Shown here: in pieces, positions 37,338-46,461 of the stretch
Layout of the letters: the number at the start of each line of letters is the position of its first letter
Numbering within the stretch: position 1 is the stretch's first letter
Assembly (NCBI GenBank): GCA_022695795.1
Contig: MU404137.1
Coordinates: 1 to 64,000 of the forward strand
Direction: 5' to 3'
Origin: Biscogniauxia marginata
Taxonomy: Eukaryota > Ascomycota > Sordariomycetes > Xylariales > Xylariaceae
DNA length: 64,000 bases
Made by a program: the position numbers and the translations under genes
The notes under the pieces: generated by a model
The model's input: only the letters and a program-made list of their open reading frames with translations
What the model was told of the DNA's origin: nothing
Databases searched by the model: none

Positions 37338-37958
37338 GCGTAGAACGGCCGCCTGCCTAGTTACCTATATACGCATAATTGCTCCTCGCATATATGGACG
37401 ATGCCGTAGTAGAAGGCCGCATAATAACTTATGGAGGTTCAAGACAAGGCCGTATGCTTTCTACTGTGGCTGGATGGATGATCTGGAACGAGCCTTGTTT
37501 GTTGTATAATATAGGTTAGAAAGATATGGTCCTGAAGGAACGGTTGTTGCAACGAGTCGAAGCAAAAAGAATTAATAGAATATTATACCCCCCTAGCCAC
37601 CGTACGTACCTTTTTTGCTTGTAAGGTAGTGTCAAGATGTTGTGTTATCAGGTACATCCCGCTGTATTACTTATATGGTTGATTGAATAATCGGATTATT
37701 CACCTAAAAGGTACCTGATTATGTAATTAGCTGCAAGATCTTAATTGAGAGAACCCCACCAATAAAAGCAGACGCCAAAAAACGCGCCCCTTTTAATTGA
37801 AACGCGAAGAACGCGTCGAGCCAATCTCGACCTAACGACGACTTTTTGAGTCCCACTCGACTTTGCTGGTCTTGCACCCCTCAACTACAGCAGCAACAAC
37901 AACAATAACGCCTAATTAACCGCCGAGCTCGTCGCAACAACTCCAGTCACATTGCACC
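37338..37958. other. Intergenic, mcm4 promoter
   Basis: Contains the sequence AAACGCG and two ACGCG elements at about 37780-37815, of the kind bound by MBF-type cell-cycle factors (MCB-like ACGCG), about 150-180 bases upstream of the mcm4 ATG. This is a suggestive position for a replication gene; binding is not shown by sequence alone. Confidence 0.45.
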
Positions 37959-40900
37959 ATGGCGACACCAAGCGACGCCGGCTTCATCATGTCTGATGCT
38001 CCCTCGAGGGCTGGCGGTGCTACTCCTAAGCAGAGACAATTCCAACGAGGATCGTCAGCACGGCCTCGAGGACCGCCCTCCGAGAGTCTAGCAGCCCCGA
38101 GCGACGATGAGGGCGATGGATTCGCAGACGACCAGATCCCCGGCCGTCCAAGACGCCGTGACCCGGCAAATGTTCCTCGAGTAGAGGATAGAATCGGCAT
38201 AACCGTGCAAGAGCACTTTGAGAACTTCATCGAGGAGTGAGAACCTCTTGCCATCCGTAGCTATCGTGGGGGGGTCTGTGACTGATGATTAACTGCCAGG
38301 TTTATTGAGGATCCTGTCTCTTCCGGAGCACCGACTTCAAGCGCCGTCGCCACAGACAGGTTCTACGTCGCCCAGATCCATAACATGCGAGTCTATCAAC
38401 TCTCTACCTTCTACGTGAACTACAATCACGTCGCCTCCTTCCAGAATGGCGGTCTGGCGAACGCCATTAACACCCAATACTACCGATTACTCCCTTTCCT
38501 CACCAATGCCCTACATAACATGATCGCAAAGTACGAGCCACAATACTTTCGCGAACACCGACAGGCGACAACGTCGAGCGGCCAGACCACATCTGGCGCG
38601 AGCAATATTGGATCCGCCAGCCAGTCCGACTTGCAGGGCAGCAAGACGGCTAACCAACAAACCGACAAGCTCTTCGCCATTGCCTTCTACAACTTGCCGC
38701 TCGTGTCCCGAGTCCGCAGTCTACGGGCCAAGAATATTGGCCAGCTGCTTTCTATCTCCGGCACTGTCACGAGAACATCTGAGGTCAGACCCGAACTCTC
38801 GCTTGCAACCTTCACCTGCGAGGCCTGTCGGTCTGTCATTCCCAACGTCGAGCAGACATTCCGCTACACTGAACCTACACAATGCCCCAACGCCGAATGT
38901 GGAAACCGTCTGGCCTGGCAACTCGACATCAGGCAGAGCACCTTTGTCGACTGGCAAAAGGTACGCATCCAGGAAAATAGTTCCGAAATCCCTACGGGGA
39001 GCATGCCGCGGACGATGGACGTCATCATGCGAGGCGAGATCGTTGATCGTGCCAAGGCCGGAGAGAAGTGCATTTTCACCGGTGCCTTGATTGTAGTCCC
39101 GGATGTCAGCCAGCTGGGACTTCCGGGTGTCCGACCTACGGCGATTCGGGATGATCGGAATGCCCCACGCAGTAACGATGTTGGCGGCAGCGGAGTCTCG
39201 GGTCTCAAGTCGCTTGGTGTTCGTGATTTGACATATCGATTAGCATTCCTTGCCAACATGGTCACACCCGATACCTCCACTCCTGGCCAGTCCGCTAGCC
39301 GACAAGTTCACGAGATCACCAATTCTCTGACCCAGTCCTCTGCTGACACGACCGAGACTGTCGAGGAGGCCCAGAATGCAGTCCTAAACTCCATGGCGCC
39401 TAGTGAGATCGACGAACTGCGTGAGATGGTCCACAGTGACCACATTTACGCACGTCTGGTCAAGTCATTGGCACCAACTGTCTACGGACACGAGATTGTC
39501 AAAAAAGGAGTACTCCTACAGCTGATGTCTGGTGTCCACAAAACCACCCCTGAAGGCATGGAACTTCGTGGCGACATCAACATTTGTATCGTAGGCGACC
39601 CGTCGACCTCGAAATCTCAGTTCCTCAAGTATGTCTGCTCTTTCGCGCCGCGGGCAGTCTACACATCTGGAAAGGCCTCCTCGGCTGCCGGTCTCACGGC
39701 TGCCGTGATGAAAGACGAAGAAACGGGCGAGTTCACTATTGAGGCCGGTGCTCTCATGCTTGCAGACAACGGCATCTGTGCCATTGACGAGTTTGACAAG
39801 ATGGACATTGCAGATCAGGTTGCAATCCACGAGGCTATGGAACAGCAAACGATTTCCATCGCCAAGGCAGGCATTCAAGCTACGCTGAATGCCAGAACAT
39901 CAATCCTTGCCGCCGCGAACCCGGTAGGCGGACGTTATAACCGCAAAACGACCCTGCGCGCCAACATCAACATGTCAGCACCCATCATGTCCCGTTTTGA
40001 CCTGTTTTTCGTTATTCTTGACGAGTGTAACGAAGCCGTCGATCGCCATCTCGCCGAGCATATTGTGGGCCTCCACGCTTTACGAGACAGCGCTATTGAG
40101 CCCGAGTTCAGCACTGAATGCCTACAGCGATACATCCGCTTCGCGCGGACATTCCGGCCAGAGTTCACAGACGAGGCCAAGGAGCGGCTGGTCATCAAGT
40201 ACAAGGAGCTGCGCGCTGACGATGCACAAGGAGGCATCGGCAAGAATAGCTATCGTATTACGGTCCGACAGCTAGAAAGTTTGATCCGACTGTCAGAGGC
40301 GATCGCCAAGGCCAACTGTGTCGAGGAGATCGTGCCCGACTTTGTGGACGAGGCGTTTAACCTCCTGCGCCAGAGTATCATTTCCGTGGAGCACGACGAC
40401 GTAGAGATGGACGAAGAGGACGATGATACGCCCGAGGACTCGGCCGCGCTAATCGCCGCCGCAGACCAAGCTTCAGGCGCCGCACCGGTCCAGGACGAGG
40501 AGGGCGACGCGGAGATGGGTGAAGCAGATGCCGACGCCGGAGCTAGCGGCGCTGATGATGATGCCGCGGCTGCCCACCAGCAGCAGCGAAAGAAGACGGC
40601 CATCACGTACGAGAAGTATATCAGCATGGTGAACCTCATAGTGTCGCGTGTGAACGACGACGAAGCGGCGGGCGCCGGGGAGGGCGTCGACGGCGAAGAC
40701 CTCGTGCAGTGGTACCTCGAGCAGAAGGAAGACGAGCTCCAGGGCGAAGAGGATTATCATAACGAAATGAATATCGCAAGGATGGTGCTGAAGAAGATGG
40801 TCAAGGTATGTTCTAATCTACTCTACCCCTAACCCCCTCCCCCCCCTTTTTTATCTAATCTGTTGTAAATCAACTGTGGACCATTTGCTGACTTGGCGCG

Positions 40901-41908: not shown

Positions 41909-41996
41909 AGGCCACGCTGAGACTCGAACTCAGGTTGCCGGAATTTCTCAAACCTATGATCAAAATCCGGAGTGATAACCTCTACACTACGTAGCC
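41909..41996 (-). tRNA. tRNA-Gln (UUG anticodon) with 16-nt intron
   Basis: On the minus strand the sequence folds as a complete tRNA. The seven-base acceptor stem is GGCTACG with CGTGGCC (one G-T pair). The D arm is GTG..CAC with GG in the loop. The anticodon stem is CCGGA with TCCGG, the variable loop CAAC, the T arm CTGAG-TTCGAGT-CTCAG, and the discriminator U. The anticodon loop TTTTGA-T gives anticodon UUG. A 16-base intron (TCATAGGTTTGAGAAA) sits one base after the anticodon, the canonical 37/38 position. The mature length is 72 nt without CCA, and CCA is not encoded. A run of five T on the minus strand at 41897-41901 ends transcription by RNA polymerase III. Splicing would need the Sen endonuclease, whose Sen34 subunit is encoded at 54-55 kb. 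Confidence 0.93.
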
Positions 41997-42287
41997 GGAC
42001 GGAGTTAACCGGTTTGCCAGCTGGCAGTTTTATCGAGCTTTAAGACGTCGGTACCTGTTCTTGACAAATTAAGCTTAGCGCCGATGCCGCTTTCACGCAT
42101 CTAGGCTTGACTGATTACATTATCAGTTACGTATCTTAAGTACATGAGGTACCTTAGGTACCTAAGTTATATTTGTAAATATTTCTCAAATATTATTTCT
42201 CAAAATTTAAAAATTATAAAGAGACGAAACATACCTACTACATATTAGGTAGGTAGTAGATCTCACAGTCCAAAACCCCCCTTCGTC

Positions 42288-43122
42288 ATGGCGGTCCAGA
42301 TTTCTCTCCGATCTGCTGCATCTAGAGGTTCCCAAGGGCCTGCCTACGACGTCTTCGAGGAGATTTGTCCCGAAAGAAAGCACCCTACCTACCTACCTAC
42401 CTGGCGCTGCTCGGTGGTGATTATCGGCAACATTGCATTGCACCGCACGGGGAAGACTGCCTGCAGCTCGCGCGGGTCCCCGCGCCGTTCTTCTTCGTCC
42501 CGCCGGGAACCACGAGGGCCCTACGGTTCCGGCTGGCCCGAGGCGCTCGAGATTCATGCGCGCCTTCGAGCGTTGACGTCCGCGAGAACAACGTCGCTGG
42601 GGAGTGAGTTTGTCCTGCTGGAACCGCGCGGTTGTTCCGGCTGCCGGACACCGACCACCGTGTCGTCTTGGGCTGCAAACCTCTTTTCTCTCGTGCCCCC
42701 TCCCCAAAAGCCGCATGGCGGTCAGCTGCGGACTGCGTGACTTTTTTTTCGGACCGGGGACTGGGGATGTCGACGCGCACAGGCGCGATGTCGCCTGGTT
42801 GAATGCGCAGGTCGCGGGCTTCGAACAGTCGGACGTTCAAGATCGTGATTCTGTCGCATTTGGAAGCCCGTCGAAGGATGTGCGGGCTATAGAGCCGCGA
42901 GTCCGATCACCGGCGAGTTCTCGAAGGACCTATCGGGGAGGTGTGCTTTAGGAGCGCTAGAGTTAGGCCCTGGGCGTTCGGGCACACGCATTCATTACAA
43001 CTGCGACTTCGCGGCCGCGCGGGACGGTGGTGCCGGACCGTTGAGGCTGCTCGCGAACCAGAGGGGATATTACTTCGCCCAGGCTCCCGGGTTCGACGGT
43101 GAGAAGACAGTCGAGATATAAC
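42288..43122 (+). pseudogene. Calcineurin-like metallophosphoesterase, broken by many micro-tandem duplications
   Basis: Pieces of a metallophosphoesterase can be read in order but in all three frames: MAVQI at the ATG (42288), VFEE, the LLGGD metal site near 42405, FFFVPPG before a disrupted NHE motif near 42500, GWPEALEI, EFVLL, VAWLNAQVAGFEQSDV-like sequence near 42800, WAFGHTH near 42970 (the family's GHTH metal site), and a clean ending LLANQRGYYFAQAPGFDGEK with a stop at about 43122. Between these pieces the frame is shifted by short additions that copy the adjacent bases: CTG x2 at 42313, GCCT x2 at 42338, GAG x2 at 42357, GAAA x2 at 42372, CTAC x4 at 42385, GGT x2 at 42413, CATTG x2 at 42431, GAGT x2 at 42602, CATT x2 at 42989, plus single-base repeats. 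Substitutions in the conserved blocks are few. The gene cannot make a full protein as it stands. Confidence 0.8.
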
Positions 43123-44085
43123 GGAGAGGCAGGTAACTGGAGATAAAGTATTTGGAGTGTGTGGTCTGAGATGAGTCGGAATACGGGATTTCCCTACGCG
43201 TAGTATAAGTCGAGTCTCCTACGGAAGACAGACAAGCACATCGCTCCCACGCCGATCAGATGCGGGATCCTGGCCATCCCTGGTCGACTCAAGCACATCC
43301 TGGAGAGGAGGACCTAGGACTTAAACGGGGAAAGAGTCAAGTTCGGGTCGGATTCCCTTGCCTTGGCCGGGACGAGACTGCTGCGCAACGTATCGCGCAT
43401 CTGCAGCAATAAGTAGGTAGAGAGTCTCCGGCCTGCTTTCCAGCTGCGATCATCAGGCTCTGCGTTAACGTCTACCTCTGAGAGGAACCTTGCGAGCACG
43501 GCGTTGCAGTTTCTCCTGACCTCTAAGGGCCGTTCCTACTACTAATATCCGGATCTACGCGACTTCGCCGTCTGATTCACGTGATCCGAGCAAAGGGGCA
43601 GTAGCTCGTGAAACTCGAGCAGATTCGCCTGTAGCTAGCTATACGATCGTACCTCGACGGAGACCGTACGTGTGTGTGTGCGTGTGTGTGTGTGCGTGTT
43701 CTTGCGCGGCGAATAGGGGGCTGGCTTAACCGGATTCAATGAGCCCGTCATGGTTTCCAAGCTGTGCGGCACGCTCAAGATCGTGAGAGCGAGCTGTTAG
43801 GATCCCAGCCCTGGGCACTGGCGTCATCAGTTACGTTTCTTAGACGCCCGTGTCCGCAGACCGTTTTCCGGCCCTGGCAGCCCAGTGGGGGACCAGACGT
43901 CTTCAAACCGGATCGAGCAAAAGTCTAGTCGTCGCTCCCAGGCCCCTATATCTTTGCTGGAAGCGTATCTGCGTCGTCTATACGCGGGGGGTTCAGGGAA
44001 AGCGAACCCCAGAGGTTCTCTTGTGATGGCCTTGATCGGGTACATGGAGTACGTCGATGACGATGGGCTCTTGGACGCAAACTGA
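43123..44085 (+). other. Unidentified stretch with possible further decayed coding sequence
   Basis: Contains a GT/GC dinucleotide run at about 43671-43700. Downstream, short stretches look protein-like in more than one frame, for example NEPVMVSKLCGTLKIV near 43740 and LVMALIGYMEYVDDDG near 44030, separated by stops and frame changes. No family is recognised. By analogy with the adjacent phosphoesterase it may be a second damaged gene, but this is weakly supported. Confidence 0.3.
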
Positions 44086-45335
44086 ACCGACTTCCCGAGC
44101 CGCTCAAGACGTCATGCACAGAGCTAGGAGAGGAGAGGGGATGGGCTTTTCGTGGATGGTATACATATTCCTTTATTCCGTGCCGTGGGAGAACACATTT
44201 TTTACTGTTCCTTACCTACTCGGTACAGAACCCCCTACTCTGTTTCCTTTAAAGCTCCAACGATCCTTGGAGATGGATACAAATTATATACCTATGTTGC
44301 ACGCAAATATTATAGTGAGTGGATTAACCAGGTTGAATATATGCGTATTGTCGAGGTTTCTAGGCTGGCGGGTTTACAGGCGAGGTGATGTACATACCTA
44401 TAGTATAGCTCGGTAAAGATATCATTTACTTGATGTTACTCCGAAATCCGAAATAGGGGGGATAAGAGAGAGAGAGAGAGAGAAGGGGGGGGGGGAGGAG
44501 GCAGGATTGACAACTTCCATTCTTATCACAGCAACATAAGCACCGAGGTGACTTAGGTAGGTTCGTATTTACGAGATGTCTCACTACCAGGTAGATACGA
44601 AATAGAAAATGGGCGATTATAACGGGGAAAACCTACACGGGCATTGCGCTATATATTACATATAAACCTTCCCCGGAATAACTTGGATATACCTAAGGTA
44701 AGGTCCACTATATTTCTATAGGTACCTATCCCGCTTCGGAAATCCTATTCGGAAAAGTCTCGGATTGCTAGTGTAGCATGCAATTGATGAATGGCGGGGG
44801 CACGCACGCACGACATTTGGCGGGGTTCTTCTCTTTTTTCTACGGGACTCCATCTACTATACTAGGTACCTATTATCAACCCTTAGGCCGATGGCATCAT
44901 CGCTCTATCTCTACCTACCTACCTACCTCCATATAACTAACCAACTTACTTACCTACTTGTACATACCGGACTATCTCCATAATAGAAGAGCTGGAGAAA
45001 GAAAAAAAAAAGAAAAAAAAGGCAACAATTCCCTCCCTTACCTATATAAGTCGAAATTTCTATTCCCTTTTACTTTCCCCCCTTTTTGTTAAAAGACAAG
45101 CTATATGCGCCCCCTCCTCCCCAAACTCACCCTCCAGACCTCTTACTCTTACTCCTACTCCCGCTCCTACCACACCCGCACCCTAACAACCCCTCTAACC
45201 CGCACCCATACCCGCACTTATACCCGTACCACCACAAACCCTTCCCACCTCACCACCACCACCACCACCATCACCACCACTACCCCCATCTTCCATCCCC
45301 CAACCCAAACCCGAACCCGAACCCGAACCCGCACC
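44086..45335. other. Intergenic with GA/G tract and hexamer repeats
   Basis: A GA repeat followed by a G run lies at about 44467-44500. Palindromic TAGGTACCTA-type motifs occur near 44719 and 44862, and CTAC tandem repeats at 44911-44928. The part from 45105 is an open, low-complexity frame continuous with the SDR gene, with CAC/CAT repeats near 45255-45285 and ACCCGA hexamers at about 45306-45331. Confidence 0.5.
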
Positions 45336-46461
45336 ATGTCCACCGCAGCAGCAGCGGCGGCGTCCAAGCGCCTCGCCGGGAAGACCGTCCTGATCACGGG
45401 CGCCTCCTCCGGCATCGGGCGCAGCACGGCCTTCGAGTTCGCGCGCGCGGCGGCGCCGAGCGGCGGCGGCCTGAAGCTCGTCCTCACGGCGCGGCGCGTC
45501 GACGCGCTGAAGCAGGTCGCGGCCGACATCGCGGCCGAGGTCGGCGGCGCCGGCGCGGGAATCAAGGTGCACACGGTCGGGCTCGACGTCAGCAGGCCCG
45601 AGGAGGTGCGCGGGTTCGTGCGGGCGCTGCCCGAAGAGTTTCGTGACATCGACGTCTTGGTTAACAATGCGTGAGTTTATATTATTATTATTATTATCTT
45701 TTTATCATATTTTTCTTTTCCATATCTCGGTTTTAGTTTCGGAGGTCTGAGTTATATAACTTTAAACTACGGGGTCTCAGGGGGGGGAATGGGGGTGGTA
45801 GTTAGAGACAGAGAATATGCCGTGAACTATCAGTCCTACTATCTCCCTTTATACGTTTCTTTCCCACTAGAACAGCGATATATTATTTACTAACGACCCC
45901 CTAGCGGCCTAGTCAAGGGCGTGGCCAAGGCCCCCGAGATCGCCGAGGAAGACCTGAACATCATGTTCGCGACCAACGTGACGGGGCTGATCAACCTGAC
46001 GCAGGCGGTCCTGCCCATCTTCCTGAAGCGGCCCAACGGCGGCGCCGGCGACATTATCAACATCGGCAGTATCGCCGGCCGCGAACCCTACGTCGGCGGG
46101 AGCATCTACTGCGCCACCAAGGCCGCCGTCCGTAGCTTTACTGAGTCCCTGAGGAAGGAACTCGTCGCTACGAGGATTAGGGTTTTGGAGGTCGACCCTG
46201 GCCAGGTCGAGACGGAATTCTCTCTTGTGCGATTTAACGGCGATAAATCGAAGGCCGATGCTGTCTATGCGTAAGTCACTGGCCTAGAACTGAAATTATA
46301 TCGCTAATACAACGTTTAGAGGCGTCGAGCCTTTGACCCCAGACGATATTGCCGAGGTGGTGGTCTTCGTAGCTAGTAGAAGGGAGAATGTTGTGGTTGC
46401 CGACACCCTTATATTCCCCAGCCACCAAGCTAGCGCTACAGTCTTGCATAGGAAATCATAG
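45336..46461 (+). CDS. Short-chain dehydrogenase, YMR226C/serine 3-dehydrogenase-like
   Basis: An NADP-dependent oxidoreductase; the yeast relative acts on short-chain 3-hydroxy acids and similar alcohols. Model: 45336-45670, 45905-46270, 46320-46461, giving 280 residues. The Rossmann glycine motif is TGASSGIG (about residues 21-28) and the NNAG motif is assembled across intron 1. The catalytic serine is in INIGSIAGREPY, and Tyr180 and Lys184 are in YCATK. The carboxyl end (PSHQASATVLHRKS) is typical of the YMR226C group. Intron 1 is 234 nt, long for this genome, and carries ATT repeats. The frame is open upstream to another ATG at 45105, which would add 77 residues rich in Arg, Thr and Ser with no acids, like a mitochondrial presequence. 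I chose 45336 because homologues start near there. The coding GC is very high. Confidence 0.9.

Follow-up and report, generated by a model that had tools for sequence, protein, structure and literature searches.

In fungi related to the one studied here, repeat-induced point mutation (RIP) inactivates genes by acting on repeats and making C-to-T changes. A different spectrum has been tied to topoisomerase II mutants and tumours: as described in passages of a review (PMC11477040), trapped topoisomerase II gives rise to new duplications of 2-4 nt, some of 5 nt, which require end joining, and tumours with changed TOP2A carry deletions of at least 5 bp besides smaller ones, deletions that were not found in yeast. 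Here we analyse the first 64 kb of a 193,937-base contig (MU404137.1) of Biscogniauxia marginata (Xylariales), a fungus that lives in wood, hereafter the window, and in it a conserved gene whose reading frame is broken by an excess of short insertions, most of them exact tandem copies of neighbouring bases crowded into its 5' part, with few substitutions.

The family to which this gene belongs, about 266 aa in size, has intact members across many fungi, including Camillea tinctor, Annulohypoxylon, Durotheca and Hypomontagnella, and its conserved residues are found along the whole length of the broken gene, which has a GC content of 0.62 (Table 1). When an Annulohypoxylon protein was used as the query against the whole genome, the locus was the sole match, appearing as overlapping matches in two frames, and a DNA search of the genome for a second copy of the locus found none. 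With 29 insertions and 4 deletions, a single open frame for the enzyme is absent; the longest ATG frame spans 150 aa, an unremarkable length that 12.6% of simulations reach. The protein model deposited for B. marginata (240 aa), to which the locus is 100% identical in its first frame, probably does not correspond to a real protein. At 42288-43121, this model stitches together pieces of two frames.

Table 1. Coordinates of the broken gene, its parts and its surroundings in the window.
Feature	Position	Strand	Remarks
MCM6 open frame	38385..40832	+	815 aa; unbroken left neighbour
tRNA gene	41909..41996	-	Nearest conserved feature to the left, 292 bp upstream; Rfam tRNA 52.1 bits, whole by covariance model; ARAGORN
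Broken calcineurin-like metallophosphoesterase gene	42288..43121	+	Recognisable from ATG to TAA; frameshift-aware alignment covers 42288-43118
Zone with 28 of 29 insertions	42288..42864	+	First 577 bp; under an even spread, P about 3.5e-4
CTAC x4 array within the gene	42385..42400	+	12 nt of insertion by alignment
3' part of the gene	42865..43118	+	Last 254 bp; 1 insertion and 2 deletions
GC-rich island continuing past the broken gene	43123..44160		GC about 0.56, flanks about 0.41
Short-chain dehydrogenase exons	45105..46274	+	Nearest recognisable gene to the right, open; exons 45105-45674 and 45921-46274

The tRNA gene to the left is assigned by ARAGORN as Lys(ttt); by eye, it resembles a tRNA-Gln(TTG) with an intron. 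The GC-rich island to the right is without a long frame or recognisable gene, a six-frame scan of it gave no Pfam match, and its tandem-copy content is close to that of its shuffles; this stretch may represent a second dead gene. Comparison of one downstream frame with solved structures yielded a single match (E 0.67), which we took as none. Two pairs of short repeats were also seen, a 17-nt direct repeat, 94% identical, that flanks the broken gene (42122-42138 and 43826-43842), and a 16-nt pair at 42833-42848 and 43771-43786.

For the counting of insertions and deletions, we built a profile from 152 of 162 collected proteins (255-300 aa, with the deposited model of the window itself left out) and used a frameshift-aware codon alignment in which an insertion costs as much as a deletion. 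The locus scored 527 in this alignment, while none of 10 column-shuffled profiles exceeded -228 and none of 10 decoy regions exceeded -227, and the alignment is therefore not due to chance. When copies were given no credit (copy-blind), a gap cost of 7 yielded 28 insertions totalling 71 nt in 42288-43118, together with 4 deletions (15, 12, 10 and 1 nt). At a gap cost of 15 there were still 20 insertions and 4 deletions. Across all gap costs tried, with or without credit for copies, the insertions numbered 20-33 while the deletions were constantly 4, three of 10-15 nt and one of 1 nt. Copy-blind placement made 16 of 28 insertions exact copies, a count reached in none of 4000 draws from a null with a mean of 6.97; for insertions of at least 2 nt it was 4 of 15 (null 0.99, P 0.011). 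These counts are modest because neighbouring events get merged. In a copy-aware alignment, which credits exact copies as predictable, a gap cost of 9 gave 29 insertions, 26 of them exact tandem copies of neighbouring bases, with 28 of 30 at a gap cost of 7 and 29 of 33 at 5. By size, the 29 comprise 13 insertions of 1 nt, 3 of 2 nt, 5 of 3 nt, 6 of 4 nt, 1 of 5 nt and 1 of 8 nt, the last consisting of two 4-nt units; the copied unit is never longer than 5 nt. Exact copies account for 14 of the 16 insertions of at least 2 nt. At columns conserved at 90% or more, the residue is kept in 107 of 112 aligned (0.955), 5 of the 117 columns falling in deletions, and the aligned codons include no stop codon. 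The locus is no outlier in tandem-copy density alone (z 1.5 for 4-nt units, with 6 observed and 3.3 expected), and its signature is visible only through alignment.

These results bear on several claims of an earlier sequence-only reading of the locus. It had recognised a metallophosphoesterase from start to stop, with few changes in conserved blocks and nine named multi-base copies, and all of this was borne out: the alignment runs through the gene, conserved residues are kept, and each of the nine copies is present and lies within an insertion of the copy-aware alignment. Its description of micro-duplication without comparable deletions stands as regards the copies but must be amended for the three deletions of 10-15 nt, and the frame that it saw as broken throughout is indeed broken by 29 insertions, all but one of which are confined to the 5' zone. 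Of the comparisons that it had proposed, an alignment with intact homologues gave insertions far in excess of deletions and few substitutions, and 26 of the 29 insertions exactly copied their flanks.

Simulations were scored with the copy-aware alignment. Intact homologues retain 0.970 of the columns conserved at 90% or more (0.940-0.991, N=60), against 0.955 at the locus. The copy fraction was 0.26 (0.08-0.52, N=100) after 30 simulated random insertions and 0.92 (0.80-1.00, N=100) after 30 simulated tandem copies, the locus standing at 0.90; among insertions of at least 2 nt, the exact-copy share under random insertion was never above 0.36, compared with 14 of 16 at the locus. From a mixture of 15 random insertions and 15 deletions, the alignment recovered 11.4 insertions and 10.7 deletions (N=100). 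Thirty copies combined with 5, 10, 20 or 40 substitutions kept 0.948, 0.942, 0.918 and 0.867 of conserved columns, respectively (N=60 each), and 15 copies with 15 deletions and 60 substitutions left 0.81 of conserved residues. Set against the observed 0.955, this simulated retention implies that the substitutions since the loss of the gene probably number between 0 and about 10-20. The locus resembles simulations of 30 duplications with 0-10 substitutions and is unlike random insertions or balanced decay; its insertions outnumber its substitutions, which is the reverse of ordinary decay.

The single-base insertions have a composition of their own, as A or T accounts for 11 of the 13, the zone itself having an A+T content of 0.38; none of the 150 simulations with at least 8 such insertions reached this share. 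Apart from the CTAC array and one T run, copies of at least 2 nt stand just twice, which indicates that these repeats are new. A single step does not suffice for the CTAC array, whose unit falls in the ACCT class; among 4-nt tandem units, this class shows the strongest over-representation in the contig's non-coding DNA (64 against 13.3 expected, about five times). For 4-nt tandem units as a whole, this non-coding DNA holds 540 two-copy units against 371 expected (1.45 times), and units of 6, 7 and 8 nt are over-represented 1.66, 2.60 and 3.28 times; given this larger excess at 6-8 nt, the non-coding tandem excess alone does not indicate a short-overhang process.

Elsewhere in the genome, we compiled six family tables totalling 421 rows (metallophosphoesterase 22, HET 78, P450 111, dehydrogenase 19, kinase 137 and aldo-keto reductase 54); the candidates scored were 92 of 256 for P450, 19 of 251 for dehydrogenase and 123 of 204 for kinase. 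The genome scan for the same signature that the sequence-only reading had suggested found, by eye, no overlapping two-frame matches like those of the broken metallophosphoesterase among the 421 rows listed for the six families, a weak negative given that the 22-row metallophosphoesterase search missed the broken locus itself and that similarly broken genes could thus be missed. Two aldo-keto reductase relics were followed along their frames: L047 (C4:106800-107600) keeps one frame over 112 residues with no gap and 4 in-frame stops, and L048 (C11:176200-177000) keeps one frame over 71 residues with one gap and 2 in-frame stops, so common decay also occurs in this genome. L047 is similar to aflatoxin aldehyde reductases. 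Two further suspected pseudogenes (L037 and L041) were rejected because they read as genes with introns. A coding-potential model allowing frame changes had no power as a finder of shredded genes, scoring the locus like its own shuffles, and its candidate lists were therefore discarded. Eight GC-rich stretches without long frames were listed for C83 (the contig of the window) together with the initial 70 kb of C1; two of them (37811-38288 and 45801-46330) lie beside or inside known genes, and the six-frame Pfam scan covered the island next to the locus and five others. In these five, one match, to an oxidoreductase taken to be an intron-containing gene, exceeded the cut-off and two weak matches fell below it. 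At L029:2511-2609, a run of 99 N may be a scaffold gap. A literature search on this genome or on similar gene decay found nothing direct, which does not imply that such papers are absent.

We tentatively propose, at a probability of roughly 0.4, that the gene was lost recently through many small staggered double-strand breaks followed by fill-in and end joining. Many small breaks with short 5' overhangs would have struck the gene within a short time; each overhang would have been filled in and the ends joined, leaving a tandem copy of 1-5 neighbouring bases, and a few times the ends would have been trimmed instead, with the loss of 10-15 bases. The source of the breaks might have been trapped topoisomerase II, known for such a spectrum, and another staggered cutter is equally possible. 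Speaking against the proposal, the TOP2 gene reads open, with introns, and the one residue inspected, which by eye we take to match human K743, is still K. In favour of end joining are the 26 exact copies among 29 insertions, their short units, the mostly new repeats and the 107 of 112 conserved residues, together with deletions of 15, 12, 10 and 1 nt rather than a spread of 1-2 nt losses and a CTAC array of the ACCT class that a single step does not explain. The new copies of 2-4 (5) nt that mark the topoisomerase II and end-joining signature make up 14 of the 16 longer insertions, and the 13 one-nt insertions lie outside its definition. Other hallmarks of that signature are a hypercleaving topoisomerase II or a topoisomerase poison, and a dependence on Tdp1 and on end joining by Lig4 and Pol4. 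Several observations speak against end joining: these 13 of 29 lean towards A/T and fall outside the 2-5 nt described in passages of PMC11477040, so many hits in one gene are left unexplained while the other dead genes of the genome are spared, the tandem excess in the non-coding DNA of the contig is not confined to short units, and the tumour deletions of the topoisomerase II spectrum include smaller ones and went unseen in yeast. Among the mechanisms that the sequence-only reading had offered, staggered-cut fill-in with end joining fits the spectrum best, and plain slippage fits less well because most units of at least 2 nt stand just twice and hence are new repeats; nothing shows the targeting, silencing or diversification that it had also raised.

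End joining is only slightly favoured over a local fault of the assembly or consensus, and the two readings are nearly level; we regard such a fault as a serious possibility, while leaning against it. A few hundred bases built from too few noisy reads, with misaligned bases kept twice, would make an intact gene look shredded; that consensus building could double misaligned bases is our own, uncited inference. The edge of the damage is sharp and lies inside the gene, the conserved residues are all but intact, MCM6, the tRNA and the short-chain dehydrogenase as nearest conserved neighbours are whole, and the relics L047 and L048 are without the signature, all of which would suit a local fault, as would indel errors in early PacBio data about 15 times commoner than substitutions according to a passage of PMC4719071. 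However, a share of 14 of 16 exact 2-5 nt copies is unlike random base insertion, and the raw Neurospora crassa PacBio reads reported in a passage of PMC5964698 carry 2.9% insertions, 8.8% deletions and 5.0% substitutions, against 29 insertions to 4 deletions here. Three deletions of 10-15 nt beside just a single 1-nt deletion, and a many-step CTAC array that matches a repeat class common in this genome, likewise argue that the bases may well be real.

A shower of slippage, in which a single error-prone pass of synthesis (for example, repair synthesis after a break) recopied short stretches across the 5' part of the gene, is unlikely: it would account for 28 of 29 insertions clustering in 577 bp and for a single kind of change, but existing runs should then be favoured, yet most copied units stand twice, deletions would be expected about as often, and a literature search for such showers found no direct match. 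We give very little credence to a RIP-like process that, in fungi of this kind, inactivates chosen single-copy genes by 5' showers of micro-duplications via staggered breaks and fill-in. It is also very unlikely that chance or the alignment makes ordinary pseudogene decay look special here. Tandem copies are also in excess in the non-coding DNA of the contig and the locus is not outlying in raw copy density, as such decay would allow, but simulated balanced insertions and deletions come back balanced, a simulation with 60 substitutions keeps 0.81 of conserved residues against the 0.955 observed, and the aldo-keto reductase relics L047 and L048 stay in frame with stops. With 28-29 insertions against 4 deletions, few substitutions and simulations that differ, the view of the sequence-only reading that ordinary mixed decay does not fit is upheld, as is its view of RIP, given a single copy and few substitutions.

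Should the favoured reading of breaks and end joining be correct, the gene was inactivated almost exclusively by newly made tandem copies within a single short zone, and the locus would preserve, in the germ line of a fungus, a natural trace of breaks repaired by fill-in and end joining, opening the question of what gathers such breaks in one gene. Should an assembly fault be responsible, the locus illustrates how a fault of this sort can pass for a mutational signature and put a false gene model into databases. Compared with known systems, the locus shares with the de novo duplication signature of topoisomerase II (yeast top2 hypercleavage alleles and cancer ID17, as covered in passages of PMC11477040) fresh tandem duplications of short units, mostly no longer than 4-5 nt, few substitutions, and deletions of at least 5 bp, which that signature has in tumours. 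It differs in that its events crowd one gene in an apparently wild-type germ line where no topoisomerase II change is known, with 13 of 29 insertions being of one nt. With RIP it has in common a gene-inactivating process in fungi, but the locus is single copy, has a GC content of 0.62 and carries no stop in its aligned codons. The relics L047 and L048 are likewise dead copies of conserved enzymes, yet each keeps to one frame, L047 across 112 residues with 4 in-frame stops and L048 across 71 residues with 2. New here are the 5' clustering, the A/T lean of the 1-nt copies, and the in-frame decay of two other dead genes.
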